Origin: Limnochorda pilosa
Lineage (GTDB): Bacteria; Bacillota; Limnochordia; Limnochordales; Limnochordaceae
Direction: 5' to 3'
Length of the DNA: 64,000 nt
Assembly (NCBI RefSeq): GCF_001544015.1
Contig: NZ_AP014924.1
Span: 2,790,001-2,854,000 of the forward strand
Each line of letters begins with the position of its first letter. Within the stretch, counting starts at the first letter, position 1. Of the stretch, positions 7,443 through 40,749 are shown in pieces. The notes under the pieces are model-generated. The model was not told where the DNA came from and did not search any database. It worked only from the letters and a program-made list of their open reading frames with translations. The position numbers and the translations under genes are program-made.

Positions 7443-7625
7443 GGGCAAACCTCCCGGGCCAGCCTGCTCCGCCGGCTGAAGGGCCACCAGGCCGTACGCC
7501 GGCCGGGGCGCCCGGCCCCGCCCGACCAGCCGCAGAAGCCTCTCGCGCACACGCCAACCTCCGTCCCCTTCGGGATCAAACCTACTGTAGACCCAAGCCG
7601 CTCGCCGGTCAAGCACCGGGGGAAG

Positions 7626-7745
7626 CCGTGGGGTCCTGCACGATGGACGCCCGCTTCGGCCCTCCGGGGCCCGTGCAGAGCGAGCGGAGGCCGGGAGGGC
7701 CGGAGCGAGCGCCCGCCGGGGAAGGGCCTGCGCCCCCACGCGGCG
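7626..7745. repeat. Dispersed intergenic repeat, copy A
   Basis: The 308-bp gap between yqfF and yqfD has no convincing gene. From about 7669 to 7742 it aligns, by eye at roughly 75-80%, with the reverse complement of 24866-24945: both share GGGGCCCGTGCAGAG, then GAGCGGA, GGAGGG and CGCCCGCC blocks in the same order and spacing. The left part (GGGGTCCTGC at 7630) also matches an arm of the other copy. Copy A looks like a decayed or internally deleted version of the palindromic copy B. Confidence 0.6.
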
Positions 7746-7750
7746 TCACC

Positions 7751-8938
7751 TCAGCGGTAGGGGACGAAATGGCCGATCTCTTCCAGGGTCTCCACGCGTA
7801 TCCGCACGCCCACCCGCCCCGGGCCGGGGCGGTAGCGTTCCACCGTCTCCTCGAGGAGCGTGGCACCGTCTCCGATCCGTTCCATGACGGCCCGGCGGGC
7901 CCTGGCCTCGGCCTCGGCCAGCGCCTCCTGGGGCGTGCGTTCCACCTGGTGGCGCACCACCGGCCAGCGCTCGTCCATGCGGAGGGCCAGGGGCAGCGCC
8001 AGCGGCCCCAGGTGGATCGGTATCCGCCAGGGCACCACGCGGGCGGGGTCTGGCCTGGGGCCCACCAGCACAGCGCGCCCGGCCACCTCCAGGCCGTAGC
8101 TCCGCCGGGGCCGGCCGGTCACCTCTTCGACCGTCTCCGCCAGCGGCACCTCGGCCTCGGCGTCGTAGCCCACCCGCGCCCGAACCACCCCTTCGGCGTG
8201 CACCACGGGCGAGTCGCCCGCGAGCACCCTCTGCTGGTGGTCAAGGCTTCCCGGGTCCAGCCGCCCGCTGACCAGCACCTGGCCCCGGGCCACCGTGTCG
8301 CCTGCCTTCACCTGAAGGCTCCCCTGGAAGGCCACCGCCTGCACCACCACCCCGTCGCGCAGGGCCACCAGGTCGCCGGGGGTGTCGCTGCCCAGAGGAG
8401 GAGCGGATCGTTCGGCCACCCGGATCTCCGCCCGGATTCCCTCCAGCCGCACGTCCGTCCAGGTGAGGAGCGGGTTGTCCAGCAAGAGGCCGTCCTCCAG
8501 CCGGCGGGGGTCCACGTCCCGGCGCAGGGCGCCCGGGTGCAGGCCTAGAGCCGCCGCCCCGGCCCGGATCTCGTCGGCGCTCAGGCGGTGGGTGCCCACC
8601 ACCTCCACCACCCACACGTAGGAAGAAAACCAGAGGAAGAGGAGGGCGGAAACCCCCATCCCCATCCAGAAAAAGGGGTGGCGTCGGGCGCGGGCCAGCA
8701 GGAAGGGAAGGCCCACCCGCTCCAGCAGGGTCACCTGAACGCCCCTGCGGCGGGCGATGGGCCGAAGCCGGCGGAAATCGTGGCGGGCCACCTGGCCCAC
8801 CGCGAGCCGCGGCCCGTGGCGTTTCACGCGGAAGAGGGGAACACTGCGGCTGGTCTCGTTCAGGAAGGCCTCCAGGCGGCCCCCGCGGAGGCGAAGGATC
8901 ACGTATCCCGTGAGGAAGCGGCGCCAGCGGTCGCGCAC
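7751..8938 (-). CDS. yqfD: Sporulation protein YqfD
   Basis: YqfD is a membrane protein made under SigE control in the mother cell of B. subtilis and needed for efficient sporulation; its biochemical role is not settled. The 395 residues begin with a soluble N-domain (RLRGGRLEAFLN), a single membrane helix near 90-110, a POTRA/FtsQ-like stretch, and a long C-terminal domain (TVARGQVLVSG, GVVRARVGYDAEA). The GTG at 8938 has GGAGGGCG upstream and starts one base after the yqfC stop. Confidence 0.93.
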   Translation of the reverse strand: MRDRWRRFLTGYVILRLRGGRLEAFLNETSRSVPLFRVKRHGPRLAVGQVARHDFRRLRPIARRRGVQVTLLERVGLPFLLARARRHPFFWMGMGVSALLFLWFSSYVWVVEVVGTHRLSADEIRAGAAALGLHPGALRRDVDPRRLEDGLLLDNPLLTWTDVRLEGIRAEIRVAERSAPPLGSDTPGDLVALRDGVVVQAVAFQGSLQVKAGDTVARGQVLVSGRLDPGSLDHQQRVLAGDSPVVHAEGVVRARVGYDAEAEVPLAETVEEVTGRPRRSYGLEVAGRAVLVGPRPDPARVVPWRIPIHLGPLALPLALRMDERWPVVRHQVERTPQEALAEAEARARRAVMERIGDGATLLEETVERYRPGPGRVGVRIRVETLEEIGHFVPYR

Positions 8939-10630: not shown

Positions 10631-12034
10631 TCAGGACCCGGCCGGATGCTCCTCCTCGACCACCACCCGCAGCCCGTCCACCGCCACCACCCGCACGGGA
10701 CGCCCCGCCGCGATGAAGGCTCCCTGGCTCACGGCGTCCACGGGGTGCCCGCCGATCACCACGCTGCCCGAGGGGCGAAGCGGGGTGCGGGCCACGCCCT
10801 GCGCCCCCACCAGCTTCTCCAGCCCGAGGGCTGGCGCCACGTACCCCTGGGCCCGCTCCTGGCGGGTCATCAGCACCAGCCGCGAGAAGGCACTGGTGCG
10901 CCGGAACCGGCGCCAACCCAGGGCGACGAGCCCCCCCGCCACCACCAGACCCAGCAGGAGCACGGTGGCTCCCTGGCCGGGATCGGGGAAGGCGATCACC
11001 AGGCCCCCCAGAAGCGCCACGATGCCCAGGATCCCCAACACCCCGAACCCCGGCGTCACGAAGAGCTCCAGCGCCAGGAGCACCAGCCCCACCAGGAAAA
11101 GCGCCGCTGCCTCCCAGCCCGCCAGCCCCGCCACCATCCTTCCGCCGAAGAAGAGTGCCAGCGACCCCAACCCCACCGCCCCGGGAACTCCCACCCCGGG
11201 GGTGAAGAGCTCCACCACCAGGCCGGCCAGCCCGAGGCCCATGAGGAGCGCGGAGACCGTGGGGTCGGTGAGGAAGCGGGCCACCCGCTCGGCCGGTGTG
11301 GGGGCAAGCACCTCCACCGGCGGGTCCAGGAAGCCCAGGGTCCGCAGGAGCTCGTCCCGATCCGGTACGAGCCAGTCGGCCACACCCCAGCGGACCGCTG
11401 CCTCACCGTCGAGGCTCAGGATCTGCCCCTCGGCCACCAGGCCGGGAAGGACCACCCGGGCGTCCACCATGGCCGCCGCCACGTCCGCCGGCCGTCCCCG
11501 GGCCCGGGCGGTCGCCTCGAACTCGGCCCGGACGGCGGCGATGGTCTTGGCATCGGCAGGCCGGGGTTCGGCGGCGCCGATGCTCGCTCCCGGGGTGACG
11601 GCGACGGCCGGCGCGGCCAGGGCGATGAGGGCGCCGGCAGACCAGGCCCGATCGTGCACCAGGGCCACCACCCGCACCGGGGTGGCCAGCAGCACGTCCC
11701 GCAGCTCTGTGGCCGCGTCCACCCGGCCCCCGAAGGTGTCGATCTCCAGCACCACCAGCGGCGTGCCCCGGCGTGCGGCCTCGGCCAGCCCCCGCTCCAC
11801 GAAGCTGGCCAGCCCCGGCTCGATGGTGCCCTTCACCGGGATCACCAGCACCGGGCCCGCGCCCTGGGGGGAACCGGCGCCGGCGGCCGCCTGCGCGCCC
11901 GCCCCCGGGTGGGTCGCTCCGAGGGCCAGCGTCCCGGCCATGAGCAGGACCACCAGGAGCAACCTCCACCGGCCCAGTGGGATCACCTCCGGACGGACCC
12001 GTCGTCTCCCCGGCCACTCCTTAGTTTTCGCCAT
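10631..12034 (-). CDS. nfeD: Membrane-bound ClpP-class protease-like NfeD protein
   Basis: The long form of NfeD, partner of flotillins. A signal/anchor (about 18-40) is followed by a ClpP-class domain (VVLEIDTFGGRVDAATELRD; the putative catalytic Ser lies in AWSAGALIALA; SIGAAEP), then four or so membrane helices (about 245-370) and a C-terminal OB-fold (GAQGVARTPLRPSGSV). The ATG at 12034 lacks a close Shine-Dalgarno sequence, so the exact start is uncertain; any longer start would run into rpsU and its terminator. The role in membrane-domain organisation comes from family knowledge. Confidence 0.9.
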   Translation of the reverse strand: MAKTKEWPGRRRVRPEVIPLGRWRLLLVVLLMAGTLALGATHPGAGAQAAAGAGSPQGAGPVLVIPVKGTIEPGLASFVERGLAEAARRGTPLVVLEIDTFGGRVDAATELRDVLLATPVRVVALVHDRAWSAGALIALAAPAVAVTPGASIGAAEPRPADAKTIAAVRAEFEATARARGRPADVAAAMVDARVVLPGLVAEGQILSLDGEAAVRWGVADWLVPDRDELLRTLGFLDPPVEVLAPTPAERVARFLTDPTVSALLMGLGLAGLVVELFTPGVGVPGAVGLGSLALFFGGRMVAGLAGWEAAALFLVGLVLLALELFVTPGFGVLGILGIVALLGGLVIAFPDPGQGATVLLLGLVVAGGLVALGWRRFRRTSAFSRLVLMTRQERAQGYVAPALGLEKLVGAQGVARTPLRPSGSVVIGGHPVDAVSQGAFIAAGRPVRVVAVDGLRVVVEEEHPAGS

Positions 12035-12081
12035 GCGGGCCGCCGGCGCCTTCTCCCCCGCAACCACCGTCCCCCCAACGC

Positions 12082-12108
12082 AAAGAAGCCCGGGCGTTGG
12101 ACCCGGGC
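12082..12108 (-). terminator. Intrinsic terminator after rpsU
   Basis: On the minus strand a perfect 7-bp stem GCCCGGG / CCCGGGC with a seven-base loop is followed by TTCTTTG. It lies 18 bp after the rpsU stop and before nfeD, so rpsU and nfeD are probably separate transcripts. Confidence 0.75.
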
Positions 12109-12125
12109 CTCCATCAAGCCAAACC

Positions 12126-12311
12126 TTACTCCCCACGACGCCGCTGCTTCTTGCGGGCCGCCTCCGCCTTCTTCTTGCGGCGGACGCTCGGCTTGTCGTA
12201 GTACTCCTTGCGACGCGCGTCCGACATGACCCCGGACCGTCTCACGGTTTTCCGAAAACGCCTGAGGGCGTGATCCAGCGACTCGTTCGGCCCAACGCGA
12301 ACCTCTGACAT
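12126..12311 (-). CDS. rpsU: Small ribosomal subunit protein bS21
   Basis: bS21 is a small basic protein of the 30S subunit placed near the anti-Shine-Dalgarno region. The 61 residues begin [19 protein letters not shown] and end in a long Lys/Arg tail, as typical. A strong GGAGGGGGGAG element precedes the ATG at 12311. rpsU sits just before the nfeD-floA genes. Confidence 0.97.
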
Positions 12312-12592
12312 TCCATCTCCCCCCCTCCGGGGAGCAGCAGACCCTCACAGAACGAGGTCCGGGGTCCAAGCGGCTCCATGCCTCCACCGCCGGCAACGCG
12401 ACCGCCTGCGCACGACCACGGGCGGTGCCGTGGCCACCCGATAGCAGCGTGATTCGGCGTCCTGTTGCCCGATTCCTCCTGCATGGCGTGGAAGGCGCGG
12501 AAAGGCCCGGCGCCGCTGGTGAAAGACGCCTGCATCGCCTGCGAGGGAGCGGGGAGGGCCTGGGTCGTGTACGGTCGGGGGCCCGCGGCCCC

Positions 12593-12621
12593 TGGTGCCC
12601 GACCGAGGCGGGCGGTATAAT
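12593..12621 (+). promoter_or_regulatory. Promoter for phoU
   Basis: A perfect TATAAT at 12616-12621 lies 80 bp before the phoU start. The hexamer 17 bp upstream, TGGTGC, is a poor -35. The rest of the rpsU-phoU gap (12312-12592) holds nothing else I can identify. Confidence 0.45.
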
Positions 12622-12702
12622 GGGACCCATGATAGAAGCACTCCGGTGCCCGGCGGAAGGAACCGGCACCCGGCGCCCCGTGCGGGAAGGAGCTTGCTCA
12701 GC

Positions 12703-13425
12703 ATGCCCCGGGAAGCCTACGAGAACGAGCTGCAGCGCCTGAAGGAAGAGCTGTTGAAGATGGGTGGTCTGGTGGAAGAGCTCACCGCCCTCGCCACCCG
12801 CTCCCTGGCAGACCAGGACGAGGAGACCGCCCGCCGCGTCATCCGGCTGGACGACGTCATCGATCGGATGGACGACGAGATCGAGGAGCGCTGCATGCGG
12901 CTCATCGCGCTCCAGCAGCCCCTGGCCCGCGACCTCCGCCTCATCGGGGGCATCCTGAAGGTCGTGACGGACCTGGAGCGGATCGCCGACTACGGCGTCA
13001 ACATCGCCGAGATCACCCTGCGCATCGCCCAGGAGCCGCTCATCAAGCCGCTCATCGACATCCCCCGCATGGCGGCCATGGCGCAGGAGATGACCCGCCA
13101 CAGCCTCGACTCCCTGGTGCGGCAGGACGTGCGCCTGGCCGAGGAGGTCTGCCACGCGGACGACCCCGTCGACGAGCTCTACTCCAGCCTCTTCGACGAG
13201 CTGATCGGCTTCGTGCTGGAAGGCGGGGAGGCCCGCCGGGCCACCCAGGCCATCAACCTCATCTTCGTCGCCCGGTACCTGGAGCGCATTGCGGACCACG
13301 CCACCAACATCGCCGAGCGGGTGATCTACATCGTCACCGGCGAGCGGGTGCCCCACCAGCTCAAGGGCCACTACACGGGCACCCCCGGCGCCAACCCCGC
13401 CTTCAGGCGCCGGCAGGAAGGCTGA
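12703..13425 (+). CDS. phoU: Phosphate-signalling protein PhoU
   Basis: PhoU links the Pst phosphate transporter to phosphate signalling and limits uptake. The 240 residues form the duplicated three-helix PhoU fold: each half has its metal-binding signature, DLERIADYGVNIAE near residue 90 and YLERIADHATNIAE near residue 197. The ATG at 12703 has GGAAGGAG about ten bases upstream. No pst or phoPR gene is adjacent, so it stands alone with its own promoter, convergent with the metallophosphoesterase gene. Confidence 0.96.
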   Translation: MPREAYENELQRLKEELLKMGGLVEELTALATRSLADQDEETARRVIRLDDVIDRMDDEIEERCMRLIALQQPLARDLRLIGGILKVVTDLERIADYGVNIAEITLRIAQEPLIKPLIDIPRMAAMAQEMTRHSLDSLVRQDVRLAEEVCHADDPVDELYSSLFDELIGFVLEGGEARRATQAINLIFVARYLERIADHATNIAERVIYIVTGERVPHQLKGHYTGTPGANPAFRRRQEG

Positions 13426-13440: not shown

Positions 13441-14160
13441 CTACGCCGGGGCCGGCGGCTCCAGGAGCGGATCCAGGAGGACCGGCTCAAAGGCCACCTG
13501 ATCCCCCGCGACCAGCCGGTAGCGGACCCCCCTCACCACCGGGGGCGGGGCGAGCCGTGCGGCGGGGCCGTGGAGGTGGCCGTAGACGCAGAGAGGCACC
13601 CGGAACTCCTCGAGCAACCGGGTGAAGAGGGTGGGCCAGCCCCGAGCGTCGCACGGGGGGTAGTGGATCATGGCCACCGCGGGCCTGAGACCCGCTTCGG
13701 CCGCCGCCTCCAGCGAGAGGCGGAGCCGCATGGCTTCCCGCTGGTACACCTTCTGGTCGTGCTCCCCGAGGCCGTCGGCACCGGGAATCAGCCAACCCCG
13801 GGTCCCGCAGACGGCGCGGCCGTCTCCCAGGGCGAAGCAGTCGTTCTGGAGGGCGTGCATCCCTTCCGGCAGCGCGGCCCGCACCCGCCCGATCGACGAC
13901 CACCAGTAATCGTGGTTCCCCCGCAGGAGGAGCTTCTTCCCCGGCAGCCCGCCGATGAAGGCCAGGTCCTCGGCGGCCTGCTCGAGGGTCATGGCCCACG
14001 AGACGTCGCCCGGCACCAGCACCAGGTCGTCGTCGCGCACCAACCGCCGCCAGTGCGCGGCGACGCGCTTCGGGTGGTCCTTCCAGGCCGGCCCGAAGAC
14101 GTCCATGGGCTTCTCCTGGCCTCCGGGCAGGTGCAGGTCGCCCAGGGCGAAGAGCCTCAC
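13441..14160 (-). CDS. Calcineurin-like metallophosphoesterase
   Basis: A 239-residue predicted cytoplasmic phosphoesterase. The dinuclear metal site is complete: GDLHLPGG near the N-terminus (Asp and His), PGDVSW, LLRGNHDYWW, MIHYPPCD and YGHLHGPA. The GTG at 14160 has GGAGGCGG upstream; the longer frame beyond it is unconserved in appearance. Substrate is unknown. It ends 15 bp from the convergent phoU stop; phosphate-related roles for both are suggestive only. Confidence 0.88.
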   Translation of the reverse strand: MRLFALGDLHLPGGQEKPMDVFGPAWKDHPKRVAAHWRRLVRDDDLVLVPGDVSWAMTLEQAAEDLAFIGGLPGKKLLLRGNHDYWWSSIGRVRAALPEGMHALQNDCFALGDGRAVCGTRGWLIPGADGLGEHDQKVYQREAMRLRLSLEAAAEAGLRPAVAMIHYPPCDARGWPTLFTRLLEEFRVPLCVYGHLHGPAARLAPPPVVRGVRYRLVAGDQVAFEPVLLDPLLEPPAPA

Positions 14161-14230
14161 CGTCCGCCTCCTTCCCCGCCCGCCGGCGCGCGGGCGGCCG
14201 AGCTCTCTCCCAGCGAGACGCACCGTCGTC

Positions 14231-15577
14231 CTAGAACTTGACGGTCACCGCCAGGGTTGCCTGATCGCTGGCGCTCATGTCGCCGAACTCGCTGTCCGCC
14301 GAGGCGCTCACCACCACCGCGCCCAGGCTCACCTCGGTGGTCTGGGTGAGCTTGTAGCGGTAGGTGGGCATCAGGATCAGCGAGTCGTCCCTGAGCCCGT
14401 CGAGGGCCACCAGATCCAGGGAGTGGGCCTCAGCGGGCGCGTAGGACGCCATCCCCACCAGGTACTGGCCCGCCCGGGCGGGGCTGGCCTCGTAGGGCCG
14501 GAGCAGGCTGCCCGAGCCGTTGTAGACGTACTGCAGCTCCAGCCGGAGGCCGCCCGCCAGCCGGTAGTCGCCGCCCAGGACGGCCTGCGCGTAGGGGTCC
14601 GCGGGCGAGAGGAGGCCCGTCGTCCCGCCGGAGCTCTCGGGCGGGAGCTGGCCCGGCACCGTGTAGGTCGCCTCGCCCCACAGGGTGAAGCCCCGCCACG
14701 TGGTGGCCGCGGCCACGCCCGCCTTCTGCTGGCGGCGCCAGGCGCCTTCGACTTTCAACGTGCCCGCGCTTTCCGTCAGCCACGCCGCCGGCTGGTCCTC
14801 GTACCCGTTGAAGTAGCTCAGGTAGAGGCTGGTGCCCCGGAAGAAGGTGTCGAACTGGAGGCCGATCTCGCCTTGGTTGGACGGAAGAGCCGGAAGATCG
14901 ACTGTGTCCGGGTTACGAGTCCACGGTTCCCCCTCCTCGGAGGCGCTCGCAATCCAGAGGGCCTTCACCTGCCCGTCGCTCAGCCGCTCGAAGGTCGGCA
15001 CCACCACCACGCTCAGGGTGCCCACGTTGAAGTAGGTGGCCGAGCGGAGCGCGGTGGCGGGGGCCACCAGCGTCCCCACCTCGCCGCCGGCCAGGTCCAG
15101 GGTCACGGGGGCGAAGTAGCTGGTGGGGTTGAAGCCGTCGGCGGTGCCCCAGGCGATCTTCTGGCGGCCGATGCGGAAGTCGGTGGACTCGGAGTAGAGG
15201 TCCACGAAGGCCTGGTCCAGCTCCAGGAAGCCGCTCTCGCCGTTGGCGGCGCCGGCCAGCTGCTCCACCACGCTGGCGCCCGCGTCGAAGTAGCCCTTGA
15301 GGGAGAGGAGGCCGGCCGCGTCGTAGCCGAACCGGCGCTCGAACTCAAGCCGGTAGTGGGTCCGGTTGACGGCCACCTGGCCCGCGGACCAGCCGGGATC
15401 GTCGCTCGCGTGATCCTCCAGGGCAAACCCCACCGTCTGCCCCACCTCGCCCCGGATGGTGACCGTATCCTGGGCGGCGGCCGGGCGTCCTGCCGCCAGG
15501 AGCAGGACGGCCCCCAGGGTCACGACCCGGAGCCAGGGAAAGGCGGGTTCACGGTGGGTTCGACGACGCACGGCCAT
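14231..15577 (-). CDS. Outer-membrane beta-barrel protein
   Basis: A 448-residue secreted protein with a signal peptide (about 1-35, ending in AAAQ) followed by alternating strands typical of an outer-membrane barrel (YRLEFERRFGY, DFRIGRQKIAWG, GLRLELQYVYNG, YRYKLTQTTEVSLGAVVV) and a last strand ending in VTVKF. A C-terminal Phe is the usual signal for Bam-dependent insertion. GRQKIAWG resembles DUF1302/porin-like proteins that accompany LolA-like and MMPL genes in Proteobacteria. AAGGAGG lies eight bases before the ATG. It is the third gene of the MMPL operon. The transported compound is unknown. Confidence 0.8.
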   Translation of the reverse strand: MAVRRRTHREPAFPWLRVVTLGAVLLLAAGRPAAAQDTVTIRGEVGQTVGFALEDHASDDPGWSAGQVAVNRTHYRLEFERRFGYDAAGLLSLKGYFDAGASVVEQLAGAANGESGFLELDQAFVDLYSESTDFRIGRQKIAWGTADGFNPTSYFAPVTLDLAGGEVGTLVAPATALRSATYFNVGTLSVVVVPTFERLSDGQVKALWIASASEEGEPWTRNPDTVDLPALPSNQGEIGLQFDTFFRGTSLYLSYFNGYEDQPAAWLTESAGTLKVEGAWRRQQKAGVAAATTWRGFTLWGEATYTVPGQLPPESSGGTTGLLSPADPYAQAVLGGDYRLAGGLRLELQYVYNGSGSLLRPYEASPARAGQYLVGMASYAPAEAHSLDLVALDGLRDDSLILMPTYRYKLTQTTEVSLGAVVVSASADSEFGDMSASDQATLAVTVKF

Positions 15578-15644
15578 CGGTGGATCCTCCTTCGTGCCCG
15601 TGAGGACGCTCACGCTCTCACGCAAGGGACGGTCGGTTCCAGGG

Positions 15645-16436
15645 TCACCGGCGCAGCTCCCGCACGAAGTTGGCGGGCACGTCGGTGCGCGAGGTGGCGA
15701 TCAGGTCGATCACCGTCTTGGTCTTGCCCAGAACGTTCACCATTTCGATGTGCCGCGCCTCCCAGTTGCCGTCGGCGTTCTGCTGGAAGTTGGAGTTCAG
15801 GAGCTGCTTCCAGAGCACCCCGTCCAGGTTGTGGAAGTCGATGCGCAGGGGCACGAACTCGTCTTTCCAGACGTACATCCGCAGGTAGGCGTAGGGGCTG
15901 TCCTGCGCCTTGGGCGTCAGCTTCAACACGTAGGCCGGCCGCCCGTCCCACTCTGCGTCGGGCAGGCGCTCGGCGGTGTAGTGCTCGGTGAACTGGCTGA
16001 AGCTCGTGATCTCGTCGTAGGTGAAGTCGGTGTTCATGAAGTTCTTGCCGCGGTCGGCCGCGGCGACCCGCCGCTCGCGCCCCAGCGCGGGCAGCCAGAG
16101 GAGGATGTCGGGGTCGCCCTTCTCGGGGGTGCGCGTGTAGAGCTTGGTGCCGGCCACGTCGGCCGGAGCCACGTACTCCAGGAGCTGCTCGGTCGCGTCC
16201 CCCGAATCCTTGACGAAGATCCGCATCTCGTTGGGGCGCTCCTCGCCACGGGGGTTCACCGTGGTCAGCCTCACCTGGGCCATACCCTGCTGGGTGCTCA
16301 AGGCCGAGTCACCCTTGACCCGTTCCAGGATCTGCGGCCCCGTGAGCGGATCGGCCTGCTGGGCGCCCGCCCACGCGGGCGCAAGGGTCACGAGGACTGC
16401 CAGCAGCAGCGCTGCCAGGCGATTCCTCCGGAACAT
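15645..16436 (-). CDS. LolA-like outer-membrane lipoprotein-sorting protein
   Basis: A 263-residue periplasmic protein with a clear signal peptide (about 1-28, cut near AGAQ) and the LolA/LolB-type half-barrel fold expected of the outer membrane lipoprotein-sorting group (KLYTRTPEKGD, ILLWLPALGRERRV, YDEITSFSQF, YVLKLTPKAQ, MYVWKDEFVPLRIDF). Such proteins carry lipid or lipoprotein across the periplasm, and this subgroup is typically encoded beside MMPL pumps. AGGAGG precedes the ATG at 16436. It lies between the pump and the barrel gene, suggesting a pump-carrier-barrel chain. Confidence 0.88.
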   Translation of the reverse strand: MFRRNRLAALLLAVLVTLAPAWAGAQQADPLTGPQILERVKGDSALSTQQGMAQVRLTTVNPRGEERPNEMRIFVKDSGDATEQLLEYVAPADVAGTKLYTRTPEKGDPDILLWLPALGRERRVAAADRGKNFMNTDFTYDEITSFSQFTEHYTAERLPDAEWDGRPAYVLKLTPKAQDSPYAYLRMYVWKDEFVPLRIDFHNLDGVLWKQLLNSNFQQNADGNWEARHIEMVNVLGKTKTVIDLIATSRTDVPANFVRELRR

Positions 16437-16532
16437 CGTACGCACCTCCTGAAGACCGCGCGTCCACCGGCGCCCCGCCGGGCCGCGGGGTCCTGCGTGG
16501 CACCCCGGCCGGCCGCCGTTCCCCACCCTGCC

Positions 16533-18845
16533 TCACCGGCTCGAGGCTCCCGGCGCCACCGGCACCCGGCTCCGCACCCTCGCCTCAGGCAGGAGGCTGA
16601 GAACGGCCGGGAGCACCGTAAGGGCGCCCAGCGAGCTCACCACCATCGTCAACGCCAGCAGCCATCCGAGGGTGGCCGTCGCCTGCAGGCCGGAGAACAT
16701 CAAGACGCCGAAACCCACCACCAGCGTGGCCGCGTTCACCACGACCCCTCGCCCGGTCCCGGTGAGCGTGGTCGCCAGCGCCTCCCCCTTCGTCGCGCCC
16801 CGCGAGACCTCCTGGCGGTACCGGCTCACCAGGTGGATCGAGTAGTCCACGCCGATGCCGATGGCGAGGCTGGCCACCATGGTCGTCACCACATCCAGGG
16901 GGACGCCCGCGTACCCCATCACCCCGAAGGTGACGGCCACGGTGAGCAGGAGGGGCACCAGGGCCACCAGGCCCAGAAGGGGCGAGCCGAGCAGCGCCGC
17001 GACGATCACCCAGACCACGCCCGCGGCCCAGCTCATGCTCCGCACCTGCCCCTCGGTGAACTGCTCCCCCAGGCGGAGCACCACCTTGGCCGTCCCGACC
17101 ACCTGCGGGTCGATCCCGCGACCCTGGAAACGGTCCCGCACCGAGCTTTCGACCTGGCCGATGATGCGGGCCAGCTCCGCGGTGCCCACGTTGGCGATCC
17201 GGGCCGAGAGGTTCACCTTGCGGTAATCGTAGGTCACCAGGCCGTCGAGCCCGGCTCCCCCGGCGAACTCGAACAGGAGGAGCTCCTGGGCCACCGCCGG
17301 TCGGGTGTCGGGGATCCGGTAGGCCGCCGGATCGTCCCCGTTCAGGGCCCGGTTCACCTGTGCCACCACCCCGGCCACGGAGAGGGGCTGGCTCACCCCG
17401 GGGATGGCCGCGAGGTCGTTCTCGAGCTGTGCCAGGCGGCCGAGGAAGGCCGGATCCTTCACCCCGTCGGGCTCGCCGCTGTCGACCACCACCGAGATGG
17501 GCGTCGTCCCGCCGAAGAAGCGCTCCACCAGGCGCGTCCCCTCCACCACCGGGCTGCCCTGGCGGAAGTAGGACATCAGGTTGGTCTCCACCTGGAGGGC
17601 CGGGATCCCCCCCAGGCTGACCAGGAGGATTGCGGCACCCAGCCCCGTGATCCAGACGGGGCGGCGATGGCAGCCGGTGCCCACCCAGGTCAGCAGCCGC
17701 CAGGACCCGCCCGCGCCGCCGGCCGCCGGCCGTCGAAGATGCGCGGGGATGGGCCGGCTCACCAGCACCGCCGGGATGAAGGTGAGGGAGACCACCATCG
17801 CGAACAGGATCCCTGCGGCCGAGAAAAGGGCGAACTCGCGTACGGGCTGGATGAAGGAGGTCAGCAGGGAGACGAAGCCGGCTGCGGTGGTGAGGGCCGT
17901 CATGATCACCGGAACGGTGATGCCGGCCATGGTGGCCTCCACCGCCTCCCGCGGGCCGAGGCCGCGCCCCACCTCCTCGTAGTACCGGTTCATCATGTGG
18001 ATGCCGGCCGCGCTCCCCATGGCGAGGAGGATCACCGGAATGATCATGGAGACGATGGTGAGGTCATAGCCGAGCGCGGCCATGAGCCCCACGGTCCACG
18101 TGACTGCGATGGAGACCGACGCCAGCGGCAGGATCAGGCCCCATGGGGTCCGGAAGGCCGCGAGGAGCAGGAGGATCACCGCCAGGGCCGCCAGGGGGGT
18201 GAGGACGCGCAGATCCGAGCGGATCACCCGGTCCGCATAGATTCCCATGTAGGGGTCGCCCACCAGGTACCAGCGGCCGCCCTGGCCCCGGTTCACCCGG
18301 GACTCCACCTCCGCCACGATCTGGTGAAACCGCTCGGGCGAGTAGGTGTAGGCTGGGTCCAGGGTGACGAGCATGGCCAGCGCCTCGCCGCCGGGAGATG
18401 CCAGCGCCCTTCCCTGCGGCGAGAAGAAGAGCCGCTCCCGGAAGCGGTCCACTTCGTCCTGGGTGCGGGGCACCTGGGCGGCAGCCGGCTCGATCTCGAT
18501 GCCCAGGTCGCTGCCGCGGACCACCTGGAGGTTGAGGGGGGTGGTGACCGCCTTCACGCCTCGGATGGCGCCCAGGTCGCGGGCGACCCGGTCCACCTCG
18601 GCCAGCGCGCTGGGACGGAAGACGTCCTCGGCGGCAAAGAGAACCAGGAGCACGTCCTGGGATCCGAAGTCCTCCACGGCCTGGCGGAGCTCATCGATGA
18701 CGGGATCGCCGCGGGGGAGCATCGAGTCCACGTCGGTCTCATACCCAATACGGGGGATGAAGGCGGCGAAGGCGAGGGTGATCACGACGATCGCCCCGAT
18801 CACCCACCTGGGGTGCGAGGCGACCCACCGACCGACGCGCTCCAT
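16533..18845 (-). CDS. MMPL/RND-superfamily lipid transporter
   Basis: A 770-residue pump with the duplicated RND design: helix 1 (about 15-32), a periplasmic domain, a block of helices (about 210-370), then the same pattern repeated (helix near 400, periplasmic domain, helices about 610-760). VDSMLPRGDPVIDEL and IGIGVDYSIHLVSRYR are typical of the MMPL/HpnN-like group, which exports hydrophobic compounds such as lipids or hopanoids. The ATG at 18845 has GGGAGG upstream. It is first in the operon behind a near-consensus promoter. The cargo is not known. Confidence 0.92.
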   Translation of the reverse strand: MERVGRWVASHPRWVIGAIVVITLAFAAFIPRIGYETDVDSMLPRGDPVIDELRQAVEDFGSQDVLLVLFAAEDVFRPSALAEVDRVARDLGAIRGVKAVTTPLNLQVVRGSDLGIEIEPAAAQVPRTQDEVDRFRERLFFSPQGRALASPGGEALAMLVTLDPAYTYSPERFHQIVAEVESRVNRGQGGRWYLVGDPYMGIYADRVIRSDLRVLTPLAALAVILLLLAAFRTPWGLILPLASVSIAVTWTVGLMAALGYDLTIVSMIIPVILLAMGSAAGIHMMNRYYEEVGRGLGPREAVEATMAGITVPVIMTALTTAAGFVSLLTSFIQPVREFALFSAAGILFAMVVSLTFIPAVLVSRPIPAHLRRPAAGGAGGSWRLLTWVGTGCHRRPVWITGLGAAILLVSLGGIPALQVETNLMSYFRQGSPVVEGTRLVERFFGGTTPISVVVDSGEPDGVKDPAFLGRLAQLENDLAAIPGVSQPLSVAGVVAQVNRALNGDDPAAYRIPDTRPAVAQELLLFEFAGGAGLDGLVTYDYRKVNLSARIANVGTAELARIIGQVESSVRDRFQGRGIDPQVVGTAKVVLRLGEQFTEGQVRSMSWAAGVVWVIVAALLGSPLLGLVALVPLLLTVAVTFGVMGYAGVPLDVVTTMVASLAIGIGVDYSIHLVSRYRQEVSRGATKGEALATTLTGTGRGVVVNAATLVVGFGVLMFSGLQATATLGWLLALTMVVSSLGALTVLPAVLSLLPEARVRSRVPVAPGASSR

Positions 18846-18919
18846 CCGCCAGGGCCTCCCAGACCGGCCGCTCGAGGGCATGTCCGGCCGGTTCAGTCAT
18901 CGTCGCGGGCACATGCAAA

Positions 18920-18948
18920 ACTATACCAACCCGCCCAGGTAGTGTCAA
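18920..18948 (-). promoter_or_regulatory. Strong SigA promoter for the MMPL-LolA-barrel operon
   Basis: On the minus strand TTGACA (18948-18943), exactly 17 bp, then TATAGT (18925-18920), about 75 bp before the MMPL start. It lies in the 140-bp gap after prmA, so the envelope operon is independently and probably strongly expressed in growing cells. Confidence 0.85.
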
Positions 18949-36489: not shown

Positions 36490-39400
36490 TCAAAGGCCGA
36501 TCGCCCAGGTGATCTCGCCTTCCCGGTCGATCGCCACGTGGGCGCCCACGCTCAGGCCGATGGGCGTGCGGTAGCGGATGAGGAGCCCGCCCCCTGCCGT
36601 CCAGGCAGTGGTGCCCGTCTGCCCGGGCGGCCCCAGGAGTCCTTCCTCCCCGAAGGCCCCCCACTCGGCGAAAGCTCCCACCCGCACCGAGGGACCAAGC
36701 TCCCGCAGAACCTCCACCCCGCCCGAAGCGTAGGCCCTCGAAGGCAGCACCGGTGCAGCGATCCGCTGGCCGGTGGCACCCCCGGGCAGGAACCGCCGGT
36801 GGAAGGGCGTCGTCGCCGTGGCCCAGCCGCCCTCGGCCTTCAGGGCCAGGAGCCACGTGGCATCGGACGCCATGGGCCGGACCAGGCCCTGCTCTGCCTG
36901 CAGCCGGCCGAAGCCGGTACCGCCTCCCCCCAGCGGGTGGGCGTAGAACCCGTCGAGCCCGAGCCGGTATCCCGACGTGGGCCAGGCTGGCGTGTCCAGG
37001 CTGCTCCAGGTGAGGCGGGCGAAGGTCGCCCCCTCCTGCCCTTCCCGTAGCGCCTGGGCGGCCCCGCCCACCGTTTCCTCCACCCGCTCGTGGCGCCAGG
37101 CCACCCCCAGCCGGGTGCGCACCCGGGAGGTCCACACGGTCTCGGCGGCGCCGGTGGCCTGCCGCACTTCGCTTCGGACCTGGTCGCCCGCCCGGCCTCC
37201 CAGCTCGGCCACGACCCCGAGGGTGGCCGCATCCCAGGCCGCGGAGAGCTGGAAGGGAGCGAGCGTCCGCGCCAGCGCCGGAGGGGAGGGCAGCTCGACG
37301 CCCAGGTGATAGGAGGCCGGGCTCGTGCCGAAGCCGTAGGATCCCTCCAGGTTGATCCCCCGCCCCGCCAGGTTCTCGTAGCGGAGGCCGAGGCGGTGCT
37401 CCAGGGCCAGGGTGGCCGCCGTGACCGAGGCCCACTCCACCGGGTCCCGGTACCAGCCGAAGCCCTCGTGGACCCGCACGACTGCGTTCAGGGCCGTGCC
37501 GGAAGCCGCGGGCCCCTCCTCTCCAGCGGGAGGGCTCGCTCCGGCCGAACCGTTCTCTCCGGCCCGGCCATCATCGCCCGCACGCTCCAGGGGCACCGGG
37601 GTCACCCGCACCGTCTCGAACGCGCCGAGCTGCATGAGGCGAGCCTGGGTCAACGCCGCCGCCTCGGACTGGAAGGGCTCCCCCGGGCGCAGGGCGATGC
37701 GGGAGGCCACGAGCGCCGCATCGGTGCGGGCGGCGCCCAGCACGGTGATCCGCTCGATGGGCAAACCCTCGAGGGTCTCGGCCGGCCCTCCGCCCCGGCC
37801 ACCCGGTTCGAGGCCGCCCACTTCCTCCCGTCCGGTCACCTCCGCGCCCAGCCCGGCCAGCCGGTCCCTCGCCAGCTCCTGGAAGCGAGCCTCGGCGGCG
37901 ACGTCGGTGAGCGGCACGGCCAGGGCCCGCCCGTAGGCGTCGATGGCCTCGTGGCGGTCTCCCCGCGTCTCTGCGATGAGGCCCAGCCAGTACCAGGCCT
38001 CCACCTGGCGGTAGGGGTCCAGCGCCCGCGGCAGGCGGACCAGCCGGCGGAGGTACGGCTCGGCCGCCTTCCCGTCGCCCTCTCGGAGGTACGACCGCGC
38101 CACCAGCAGCAGGGCCGCCTCGCTCTCGGGGAAGTCGGCCAGGACCGGTTCCAGGAGCCCGCGTACCCGCTCCTGCTCCCCCACGCTCTGGAGGAACTCG
38201 GCCCGCTGCACCGCCCGCCAGGCCCGCTCCTCGCCCGTCTCCACGGGGACCGCCGGCACGCCGCCCAGCGGCTCGGCGGAGCGGGGCGGCAGCCCCAGCT
38301 CCCGGGCCAGGTCGAAGGCGTGAAGCGTTCCCTCGGCGGAGGTACCCGCCTCACTCACCACCCCCGCCCACATGCGGAGCCGGGAGGGGTCGAAGAGGGC
38401 GGTGACGATGGTTCCGGCGTTGTCGATCCCTCCCACCAGGGCCCCGCGAGCCTCTGCACCGCCCCGGTCGCGCAGCACGCCCGCGGCCTGGGGCACGTCC
38501 AGCCCGCCCCGCCAGCGGGTCAGGAGCTCCCGCAGGCGCCGGTCCCGGGCTTCGGAGGCGAGCCACCCCGCCTGCTGCACCTCGCGCATGAAAGGGGTCT
38601 CGTACCGGTTGGTCGCCCAGAGGAGGCCGTCCTCGGGCCGGCGCACCTGGTAGCGGTCCGCCGCCAGCTCGATCACCCGGGCGTCGGGAATCTTGCCGTC
38701 GGCCACCAGCACGTCGAGGCCGATGGTACGGGGCGCCCGCACGATCATCTCCACGGCCTGGTCGAGGGTGGAGGCCTGCTCCAGCACCTGGCGCAGGAGG
38801 AACATGAAGGCGATGCCGTCCGCGGTCACGTTCTCGGATGTGGCGAAGCTGTAGCTCATGCTCACGCTGATGCCGTGGACGTTCATCCCCTGCATCACGC
38901 CCACGTTGGCCGGGTAGGTGACGGTGATGAAAGGATACGCCCCTTCGGGCTCGTAGATGGCCACGAGGCCGTACCGGCCCACGGTCTGCATGGGAAGGTA
39001 GTCCAGGTTGCGCCCGTGGAGGAGCCGGCCGTCCGACGTGGCGACCCCGAAGGCGGCGAAGGAGGTGCACCCGTAGACGATGCCCAGCTCCTGGAAGACA
39101 TTGGGCAGGAGCACGGGCAGAAGGTTCCGCTCCCTCCCCCCGGACGCGGCCGCCACGAAGCCCTCCATCTCCTCCACGAAGGGCTCGGGCGTGTGCCGCA
39201 GGAGGCCCGGGGCGATCTTCGTCCGCATGTACGCGTCCTTGAAGGCCCAGACGAGCCGATCCCAGCCCTCGTGGGGCTGCACCGAAGGGTCGAAGAGCGC
39301 CCGGAGCTGCTCAGCCTCCTGGGCCAGAAGAAGGTAGTTCTGCGCGCCGATCTGGCGGTGCGTGCCCTTGAAGTGGACCACGGTGAGCCCATCCCGCACC

Positions 39401-39630
39401 TCGAGCCAGCCCTCGCCCGCGTACCGCCGCTCGCCCCGCACCTCCACGGCGGTGGGAAGCACCTCGGCCGGGTCCGCGGCACCTGGCCTCCCGGGTCCCG
39501 CGGCCCATCCGCCCGTTCCCGTGCCGATAACGACCAGCGCCGCGAGCACTCCGGCGATCCACCGGCGCATCGTGGGGCGCACGGCCCTCGCGGCCGAAAC
39601 GTGTCCGACGCGTCCTCCCCAGTCCCTCAC
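36490..39630 (-). CDS. Secreted C45 Ntn-hydrolase fused to TPR, POTRA and Omp85 barrel
   Basis: A 1046-residue protein (GTG start at 39630 with GGAGGTGG upstream; an ATG 20 codons later is the alternative). Domains: signal peptide (hydrophobic about 25-40); a C45/acyltransferase-type Ntn-hydrolase domain (about 55-460) with YGCTSFAAFG, where Cys ~188 would become the N-terminal nucleophile after self-cleavage, plus HGRNLDYLP and DNAGTIVTALFDP; TPR-like helices (about 465-595); one POTRA (ITVLGAARTDAAL, GEPFQSEAAA) with a low-complexity insert; and a C-terminal Omp85-type beta-barrel (about 740-1046, RFLPGG, ending WAIGL). This implies a hydrolase held at the outer membrane. The canonical (V/I)RG(F/Y) barrel motif is not clear. 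Confidence 0.85.
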   Translation of the reverse strand: MRDWGGRVGHVSAARAVRPTMRRWIAGVLAALVVIGTGTGGWAAGPGRPGAADPAEVLPTAVEVRGERRYAGEGWLEVRDGLTVVHFKGTHRQIGAQNYLLLAQEAEQLRALFDPSVQPHEGWDRLVWAFKDAYMRTKIAPGLLRHTPEPFVEEMEGFVAAASGGRERNLLPVLLPNVFQELGIVYGCTSFAAFGVATSDGRLLHGRNLDYLPMQTVGRYGLVAIYEPEGAYPFITVTYPANVGVMQGMNVHGISVSMSYSFATSENVTADGIAFMFLLRQVLEQASTLDQAVEMIVRAPRTIGLDVLVADGKIPDARVIELAADRYQVRRPEDGLLWATNRYETPFMREVQQAGWLASEARDRRLRELLTRWRGGLDVPQAAGVLRDRGGAEARGALVGGIDNAGTIVTALFDPSRLRMWAGVVSEAGTSAEGTLHAFDLARELGLPPRSAEPLGGVPAVPVETGEERAWRAVQRAEFLQSVGEQERVRGLLEPVLADFPESEAALLLVARSYLREGDGKAAEPYLRRLVRLPRALDPYRQVEAWYWLGLIAETRGDRHEAIDAYGRALAVPLTDVAAEARFQELARDRLAGLGAEVTGREEVGGLEPGGRGGGPAETLEGLPIERITVLGAARTDAALVASRIALRPGEPFQSEAAALTQARLMQLGAFETVRVTPVPLERAGDDGRAGENGSAGASPPAGEEGPAASGTALNAVVRVHEGFGWYRDPVEWASVTAATLALEHRLGLRYENLAGRGINLEGSYGFGTSPASYHLGVELPSPPALARTLAPFQLSAAWDAATLGVVAELGGRAGDQVRSEVRQATGAAETVWTSRVRTRLGVAWRHERVEETVGGAAQALREGQEGATFARLTWSSLDTPAWPTSGYRLGLDGFYAHPLGGGGTGFGRLQAEQGLVRPMASDATWLLALKAEGGWATATTPFHRRFLPGGATGQRIAAPVLPSRAYASGGVEVLRELGPSVRVGAFAEWGAFGEEGLLGPPGQTGTTAWTAGGGLLIRYRTPIGLSVGAHVAIDREGEITWAIGL

Positions 39631-39927
39631 GGCCAAGCCACCTCCCACGCTTTCCTGTATCAAGGCCGCCAGGAAGGCGTCCGCAGCGGCGCGCGCAGGC
39701 ACGGCGCCCCCTCCCCCGAGCCCACCGTACCCCGTTTCGGGGCGGCACGCACCCGGCGGCCGGGGAGAGGTGGAGCTCCCTGGCCGGGGAGGATGCTGCC
39801 TGGCCGGGTGGCCAGGGCGGGGGCAGAGCGTGGCCCGGGCTCGACGAGCCGCCCCGCGTATCAAACGATCTGCCCGGAGACGGCTTCGGCAGCCGCGGCA
39901 AGCCATCCTGCGCCGGCGCCCGCAGCG
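39631..39927. other. Intergenic stretch before the fluoride operon
   Basis: About 300 bp between the divergent C45-Omp85 gene and the fluoride-operon promoter. It contains GC-rich imperfect repeats (CTGGCCGGG occurs twice, near 39780-39808) but no reading frame, RNA or promoter for the minus-strand gene that I can support. Confidence 0.4.
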
Positions 39928-39956
39928 TTGACGATTCCCACCCGTGCCCGTATAAT
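39928..39956 (+). promoter_or_regulatory. SigA promoter of the fluoride operon
   Basis: TTGACG (39928-39933), exactly 17 bp, TATAAT (39951-39956). The transcript would start near 39963 and run straight into the fluoride riboswitch. Confidence 0.88.
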
Positions 39957-39977
39957 GGCGGCGTTGGGCAGACGCTG

Positions 39978-40066
39978 CCCCGGCGATGGAGCTCGCCGTT
40001 GCCCTCAGGCAAGGTCCCGGGATCCGGGTGATGGCTCCTACCAGCACGGTGGGGGCCTTTTCGTTT
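39978..40066 (+). promoter_or_regulatory. Fluoride riboswitch (crcB motif) with overlapping terminator
   Basis: The aptamer shows the conserved GGCGATGG-AGC-TCGCC element (39982-39997) and the 3' block GTGATGGCTCCTACC ending at 40042, matching the fluoride-binding crcB RNA. The last ten aptamer bases GGCTCCTACC pair with GGTGGGGGCC (40048-40057, three G-U-type pairs or fewer) around the loop AGCAC, followed by TTTTCGTTT. Aptamer and terminator are therefore mutually exclusive: fluoride binding should hold the 3' block in the aptamer and let transcription proceed into the DUF6062 gene, crcB, crcB and DUF190. Confidence 0.93.
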
Positions 40067-40089
40067 GTCCAGGAGCCCCCCGGCAGGTG

Positions 40090-40749
40090 ATGCTCGTGCT
40101 TTCGTGGCTGAGACGTCCCTTCGGGCCGCGTCCCTTCGACGTGGTCGATCTCGCCCTCGAGGCGGCGGCCGAGGTGCCGGGATGCGTGATCTGCTCGGCG
40201 GCCCGCCGTGCCACCGAGCGCAGCTTCGACGCTCTCCTCTGGGAGCTCGTGAACGACCCGGCGGTCCGCGGGCGGATTCGGGAGGCCCTGGGATTCTGCC
40301 CCCGCCACACATGGGAGCTGGTTCGCGTCGAGCGCACGAGGACCCGGAACGTTCTGGGCAAGGCCATCCTCTTCGAGGACATCATCCGGCACGTATCCGT
40401 CCTGCTTCGGAACCCGCAGCCCAGGCGGGCCCTGACGACTCGCCCGCCCTGCCCTGCCTGCGTCGATGAGCGCGAGGCAGAGCGGACCTACCTGGAGCGC
40501 GTTCTGCAGCTCGCGCAGGAGGGCCTCTCGAGGCACGTCACTCCCCCGACGACCGGATCCCTTTGTTCCCGCCACCTAGCTGCAGCCGCGAAGGGCCAGC
40601 TCGCGGATGACCTGGCCGGCTTCATCGACAAGCAGCGGTGGGACGTCGCCACCCCCCTCACCCCTGCCGAGCGGGCGAGCGTGCGGGCGGCTGCCGGATT
40701 CCTGGGCGGTGAGTGCGTGGTGCTGGACGTGGAAGCAGCGGGCCCGTGA
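40090..40749 (+). CDS. DUF6062 family protein, first gene of the fluoride operon
   Basis: A 219-residue soluble protein with paired Cys/His motifs: GCVICSAARRATE (about 34), FCPRHTWEL (about 70), PPCPACVDEREAERTYLERV (about 120) and LCSRHLAAA (about 160). The two CxxC plus CxRH pairs look like two metal or thiol-redox sites in a helical protein. This fits the DUF6062 family, which has no assigned function. It is the first gene after the fluoride riboswitch and is followed by two crcB genes, so it is probably induced by fluoride. No signal peptide or membrane helix is seen. Confidence 0.8.
   Translation: MLVLSWLRRPFGPRPFDVVDLALEAAAEVPGCVICSAARRATERSFDALLWELVNDPAVRGRIREALGFCPRHTWELVRVERTRTRNVLGKAILFEDIIRHVSVLLRNPQPRRALTTRPPCPACVDEREAERTYLERVLQLAQEGLSRHVTPPTTGSLCSRHLAAAAKGQLADDLAGFIDKQRWDVATPLTPAERASVRAAAGFLGGECVVLDVEAAGP

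Follow-up and report, generated by a model that had tools for sequence, protein, structure and literature searches.

We analysed a stretch of 64,000 nucleotides from the complete, single-contig genome of Limnochorda pilosa (bases 2,790,001-2,854,000 of 3.82 Mb; hereafter the window) and focused on a minus-strand operon at 14231-18948, which runs from the -35 box of a promoter at one end to the stop codon of a barrel gene at the other. Along the minus strand, the promoter is followed by genes for an MMPL pump, a LolA-like carrier and a barrel, a set that we favour, on balance, as an export line of the cell envelope. The features are:

18920..18948, minus strand: sigma-70 type promoter, TTGACA-N17-TATAGT, with TG before the -10 box (11/12 consensus matches)
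16533..18845, minus strand: MMPL/RND pump of the HAE3 kind, 770 amino acids (aa) from a conserved ATG, or 782 aa if from 18881 (PF03176, E 2e-54)
15645..16436, minus strand: LolA-like periplasmic carrier, 263 aa (PF17131, E 8e-36)
14231..15577, minus strand: predicted outer-membrane beta-barrel, 448 aa, with a signal peptide and a C-terminal Phe, DUF1302-related (weak PF06980 match, predicted fold)
13441..14223, minus strand: calcineurin-like phosphoesterase, directly downstream of the barrel gene

The initial annotation had described a near-consensus promoter driving a pump, a signal-peptide LolA-like protein and a secreted barrel ending VTVKF, and this layout was borne out by Pfam matches and translations for the genes and by conservation for the promoter. 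Both boxes and the spacer are identical at the same place in a same-genus genome (locus L117, 6284..6312), and sites of this quality number two in 11.8 kb vs a shuffle mean of 0.3. Locus L117, whose pump is 69% identical, keeps the order dnaK-dnaJ-prmA-pump-carrier-barrel-phosphoesterase-phoU; because a GGGAGG site and the ATG at 18845 are conserved in the alignment of the two loci, the pump probably starts at this ATG and not at 18881. Upstream of the operon, on the same strand, lie hrcA, dnaK, dnaJ and prmA (HrcA identified by Pfam, the others read from their translations). The phosphoesterase keeps its position in the same genus and was unmatched in the other loci searched, and it probably stands outside the export machine.

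The best NCBIfam match of the pump is HAE3 (TIGR00921, E 6e-92), at 308.8 bits vs a cut-off of 351.9. MMPL pumps carry, as a rule, one signature Asp in each half, which acts as a proton site. Here only the C-terminal half has it (D679 in the 782-aa numbering), with Ala at the matching place of the N-terminal half, and the same pattern prevails in an alignment of 29 pumps (the window, 26 phylum loci, the Cytophagales locus L004 and an archaeal MMPL protein, L005), where the C-half Asp is present in 28/28 bacterial pumps and the N-half Asp is missing from 24/28. A scan of genome contigs with a single MMPL protein as query returned only two relatives.

The pump is distantly related to HpnN (TIGR03480, E 1e-42; structure 6wu0), which could make the operon an HpnN-like line for the export of hopanoids to the outer membrane, in keeping with the perhaps hopanoid-like cargo of the initial annotation. 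However, its HpnN equivalog scores fall far below the cut-offs (146.1 vs 751.85 bits, and 75.6 vs 1100 bits), and the C-terminal domain of squalene-hopene cyclase (SQHop_cyclase, PF13243) had no match in the complete genome at E<=1, a search that a very divergent cyclase might escape. That part of the early proposal finds no support, and we regard hopanoid export as highly improbable. The equivalog model of BstA, from the sterol transporter BstABC, was missed as well (38.9 bits vs a cut-off of 1400).

The carrier begins with a signal peptide without a lipobox, MFRRNRLAALLLAVLVTLAPAWAGA/QQ, the cleavage site being read by eye. In addition to PF17131 it matches DUF1329 (PF07044) at 26.0 bits, above the cut-off of 23.1, and the nearest solved structures are 3bk5, 9tp6 and 4z48. 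In the carrier alignment 25/33 proteins match DUF1329 at E<=0.01. The canonical LolA family, PF03548, had no match in the genome at E<=1.

The barrel ends in ...ATLAVTVKF, and its only Pfam match is DUF1302 (PF06980), at 21.0 bits vs a cut-off of 23.2. DUF1302 is matched at E<=0.01 by 17/25 barrels of pump-type loci, and the barrel of a second locus in the same genome (L053) lies above the cut-off, at 33.2 bits. Searches of PDB sequences with the barrel, both as a single sequence and as a profile, found no relative. An AlphaFold2 model built from 25 sequences reached a mean predicted local distance difference test score (pLDDT) of 83.0 and a predicted template-modelling score of 0.81, with about 18-20 strands, the last of which ends at the C-terminal Phe. 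The highest VIA-align ranks went to porins of the OprD family, Wzi and MOMP (Z 20.2-20.4, where rows within 1 Z are ties and the common fold says nothing on function), with a root-mean-square deviation of 3.2 over 278 residues for Wzi; AlgE was resembled too.

An outer membrane and its tie to the carrier

The initial annotation counted Limnochordia among the diderm Firmicutes and proposed a search for bamA, lptD and lolCDE. The genome holds three Omp85/BamA matches (best E 5e-51), the best of which is adjoined by LpxB, LpxI, LpxD and the flagellar P-ring protein FlgI, so that other outer-membrane genes do accompany the operon and an outer membrane in this genome is supported. This is not new, because diderm status has been published for Limnochordia (PMC11456536, PMC11448272). 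YqfD and Gpr, which had also been ascribed to this spore-forming organism, are both encoded in the window. A LolCDE/MacB-like motor is present at a paralogous locus (L054). LptD (PF04453) was not found in the genome, a null that we do not take as absence of Lpt because the model matched just 2/14 control genomes.

Among 149 sampled genomes of the phylum, relatives of the window carrier (E<=1e-5) occur in 26 and Omp85 in 36. All 26 carrier-bearing genomes are among the 36 with Omp85, and none is among the 113 without it (Fisher p 3e-21). The broader PF17131 model matches 32 genomes, 29 with Omp85 and three without (G002, G085 and G130; p 5e-21), and the matches in these three are partial; because the Omp85-bearing genomes are related to one another, both p values overstate independence. 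Counted by family, the carrier is found in 15/20 Omp85-bearing families.

The general statement that ties LolA-like proteins to an outer membrane is false for PF17131 as a whole and fails outside the phylum, because the family is matched in archaeal control genomes and forms lone lipoproteins in an archaeon. A Methanosarcina stretch (L101, 5923-10538) encodes three LolA-like lipoproteins in tandem, or four if the cut is relaxed. Neither a motor nor a barrel was called next to these genes, which represent a single-membrane use of the carrier fold. The LolA-like protein of G002 is likewise a lone lipoprotein-like gene.

Three further observations concern Omp85 and LolA-like domains in long frames. 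The window encodes, at 36490-40575 on the minus strand, a 1361-aa frame that joins an acyl-CoA:6-APA acyltransferase-like Ntn-hydrolase (PF03417, residues 513-737), TPR repeats (about 820-888) and a C-terminal Omp85 barrel (1068-1341). An Omp85 match is also present in a 1077-aa frame of another phylum genome. LolA_like is matched in part (model positions 66-178) at G117:C9:73340-73663 and G039:C34:34873-35196, in frames of 804 and 825 codons.

Two motors, homologous barrels and a pump-carrier fusion

From 68 PF17131 matches we studied 54 as loci (from 27 genomes of the phylum sample, the window included) and two (G002 and G085) as contrasts; 12 weak partial matches were dropped. The motor beside the carrier is MMPL at 28 loci and ABC+FtsX at 25, with one locus cut by a contig end; labels were corrected by hand in two rows (gene order identifies the first copy in L048 as ABC+FtsX, and the MMPL gene of L053 overlaps an over-long open reading frame). 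The second motor is LolCDE/MacB-like, with ABC_tran, MacB_PCD and FtsX identified by Pfam in L054. L. pilosa itself has four such lines, three with MMPL (the window, L052 and L053) and one with ABC+FtsX (L054).

A homologous barrel stands beside 46/54 loci, a count obtained with profiles for which some genes of the first 36 loci had been selected by their position. Of the 18 loci in the later batch, which played no part in building the profiles, 11 yielded a barrel, and 2/7 misses end at the contig. The C-terminal residue is Phe in 38/46 barrels, and the other eight comprise five that are contig-cut (by position) and one each ending in Tyr, Leu and Lys. A comparison by hhalign shows the barrels beside the two kinds of motor to be homologous (99.9%, E 2e-33), and for the L054 barrel, of the ABC type, AlphaFold2 predicts an 18-stranded fold (pLDDT 90.5) that is OprD/AlgE/Wzi-like (best Z 22.2). 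The pump-type triad occurs also on the Cytophagales contig L004 and on plasmids of two Fusobacteriota. Small genes beside pump-type loci, chosen by size, encode TetR-type regulators in 10/11 cases (the miss is in L038), which suggests ligand control.

Two of the pump-type loci have unusual contents. In L039 (G117:C15) an Omp85-family barrel at 7526-8920 replaces the DUF1302-like barrel. In L053 an RHS-repeat protein with DUF6531 (11474-13168) lies directly behind the MMPL-LolA-barrel set, and a multihaem cytochrome-like gene lies shortly before it.

The recurrence of the same carrier-barrel pair with an ABC protein and two FtsX proteins, LolCDE/MacB-like, at 25/54 loci including L054 of this genome, brings up an account in which the operon would be a building line for the outer membrane. 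The carrier would bring an envelope lipid or lipoprotein to the barrel, as in Lol without LolB, with a proton pump replacing LolCDE. The missing match to canonical LolA agrees with this account, as do the operon's own promoter behind dnaK-dnaJ-prmA, kept in the genus, the pairing of MMPL and carrier with an Omp85 barrel in L039, and the Borrelia cluster BBJ23-29, which is proposed to act in this way with an Omp85 barrel (PMC13078400). However, 9-10/36 Omp85-bearing genomes are without a full-length LolA-like gene, so this is not general outer-membrane housekeeping, and the four paralogous lines in one genome suggest several substrates. A 2024 review, moreover, states that diderm Terrabacteria are without outer-membrane lipoproteins and, bar Halanaerobia, without the Lol pathway (PMC11784454). 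We consider a building line rather unlikely.

Across the class Limnochordia, PF17131 is found in 61/72 genomes, and in 12 of them (L103-L114) the domain lies inside an open frame of 979-1063 codons. Eleven of these fusions are a single frame of 1015-1030 aa, in which a full LolA-like domain comes after a full MMPL domain; L109, the twelfth, has the same layout with a break in the N-terminal part of the pump. The next gene is a barrel gene in 12/12. The 12 genomes are all from the same family (f93), so the fusion may go back to a single event.

None of the junctions has lost the ATG or GTG start of the carrier, the purine-rich run just upstream that resembles a Shine-Dalgarno sequence, the hydrophobic stretch of the signal peptide or the Ala-type site for its cleavage. 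In L122, a relative without the fusion, this purine run precedes the stop codon of the pump. RND pumps have their C terminus in the cytoplasm, and the kept signal segment would therefore place the carrier domain in the periplasm. Our first reading of the fusion was a tethered carrier; with the start codon, the Shine-Dalgarno sequence and the signal-peptidase site all intact, internal initiation or a polyprotein that is cleaved explains it no less well. The carrier may stay tethered, be released by signal peptidase or be started internally, and in any case pump and carrier are made together.

Known systems and the probable function of the operon

The closest tested system is AmeABCD of Castellaniella defragrans and its lineage. 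It consists of a DUF1302 barrel, a DUF1329 carrier, a YCF48-like protein and an HAE3 RND pump, and its deletion lowers terpene tolerance and raises the Nile Red load of the cells (PMC6394551). An AmeABCD-type copy is present on plasmid 2 of Aromatoleum aromaticum, and profiles of the operon family scored 406 bits for the pump, 44.6 for the carrier and 28.5 for the barrel against Aromatoleum proteins. Since all three profiles match this copy, the operon probably works on the same principle; both appear to unite an HAE3-type pump, a LolA-superfamily periplasmic protein and a DUF1302-type barrel in one gene set. The Limnochorda operon differs in that its carrier is PF17131 and not a full DUF1329 protein, it has no YCF48 gene (AmeC), its order is pump-carrier-barrel, its host is a diderm Firmicute, and the pump and carrier frames are fused in some relatives.

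By analogy, we lean towards the reading that the operon encodes a three-part envelope export line resembling AmeABCD, with an amphiphile or lipid as cargo, a PF17131 carrier and no AmeC, which keeps the lipid export line of the initial annotation as a candidate. The HAE3-type RND pump would use the proton gradient to extract hydrophobic or amphiphilic cargo from the inner membrane, with the Asp of its C-terminal half as the only putative proton site, as the N-terminal half lacks one. The pump would then pass this cargo to the LolA-like carrier, a soluble protein with a hydrophobic half-barrel that would shield the cargo across the periplasm, and the carrier would dock on the 18-stranded barrel, an acceptor in LolB's place in the outer membrane, which would insert the cargo in that membrane or let it out.

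Computed results are the parts with their secretion signals, the fold of the barrel, the association of carrier, barrel and motor in many genomes, the outer-membrane tie in the phylum and the fusion in relatives; we infer outward flow, a hydrophobic substrate, the hand-over and the proton site, and this is a first point against an export line. Others are that the HAE3 and DUF1302 matches of pump and barrel fall under their cut-offs, that the barrel profiles owe part of their membership to position and found fewer barrels in the later batch, and that relatedness inflates the statistics for the carrier and Omp85. The operon itself has no YCF48-type (AmeC) gene between its three genes, its neighbours being prmA and dnaJ upstream and the phosphoesterase and phoU downstream (the rest of the genome was not searched for one), and no TetR-type regulator adjoins the window copy. 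Finally, real-time dye efflux was almost equal with and without AmeABCD (PMC6394551).

The direction of flow is what an uptake line for hydrophobic nutrients would reverse, with barrel and carrier bringing amphiphiles inward and the MMPL protein assisting. The barrel resembles substrate-specific uptake porins of the OprD type, and in Aromatoleum the genes of the AmeABCD type are found in the midst of beta-oxidation genes; but RND/MMPL pumps with a known direction move cargo out of the inner membrane, and no identified neighbouring gene in the window is catabolic for lipids. In Pseudomonas putida, a DUF1302/DUF1329 pair and its RND-type partner are required for growth on Tween 20, and the authors of that study suggest substrate transport (PMC10866462), whereas deletion of AmeABCD raised dye load and toxicity (PMC6394551). 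The P. putida genes (PP_0765/PP_0766 and PP_2018/PP_2019) are like the operon in a predicted contact between the DUF1302 barrel and the DUF1329 protein and in a phenotypic link to a membrane transporter; they differ in lying at two places, in being required for growth on Tween 20 and in having an extra periplasmic partner (PMC10866462). We judge uptake improbable and continue to favour outward export.

Other systems share parts of the set. In Borrelia BBJ23-29 a LolA-like carrier lies beside a LolCDE/MacB-like ABC motor and an outer-membrane barrel (PMC13078400), and in Halanaerobiales LolA lies beside LolC/D/E, matching the second motor type found here (PMC5007114). The window operon differs from both in using an RND motor; the Borrelia barrel is an Omp85 protein, and the Halanaerobiales paper contains neither 'MMPL' nor 'RND', while its passages on LolA name no barrel partner (PMC5007114). 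Plasmid pHIC of Haliovirga abyssi (Fusobacteriota) carries, side by side and so annotated, an MMPL protein, an outer membrane lipoprotein-sorting protein and a DUF1302 family protein, of which the barrel scored 126 bits and the carrier 189 bits with our operon-family profiles; the order there is barrel-pump-carrier and the neighbours are other genes. One difference from canonical Lol is the MMPL motor in the operon, the ABC+FtsX motor being at the paralogous L054.

Taking motors and fusion together, we tentatively offer a wider reading that we think possible but less probable than not. The LolA-like carrier and the 18-stranded barrel might form a self-contained module for delivery to the outer membrane, in diderm Firmicutes and in lineages beyond them, that accepts either of two unrelated motors, a proton-driven MMPL pump or an ATP-driven LolCDE-like pump, as a LolB-free counterpart, and possibly a forerunner, of Lol. 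In one Limnochordia family, pump and carrier would then be one polyprotein, whose internal signal peptide would serve as a thirteenth membrane segment and be cut to free the carrier.

Novelty and significance

The diderm status, the family name of each part and the three-part annotation in Haliovirga are already known. In the open-licence literature of PubMed Central we found no report of the pump/carrier/barrel set in diderm Firmicutes, of two interchangeable motors or of an MMPL-LolA fusion. The 2024 review describes LolA's origin as 'completely unclear' (PMC11784454), and this set bears on the question of how outer membranes that have neither lipoproteins nor the Lol pathway are supplied. 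With the carrier, the barrel and either motor in 15/20 Omp85-bearing families, there is a concrete system in which LolB-free delivery from carrier to barrel can be tested, and the natural pump-carrier fusions are a ready construct for structural study of the hand-over. The exchange of motors and the fusion of pump and carrier among the relatives make these lines a test case for the supply of an outer membrane without the textbook systems.

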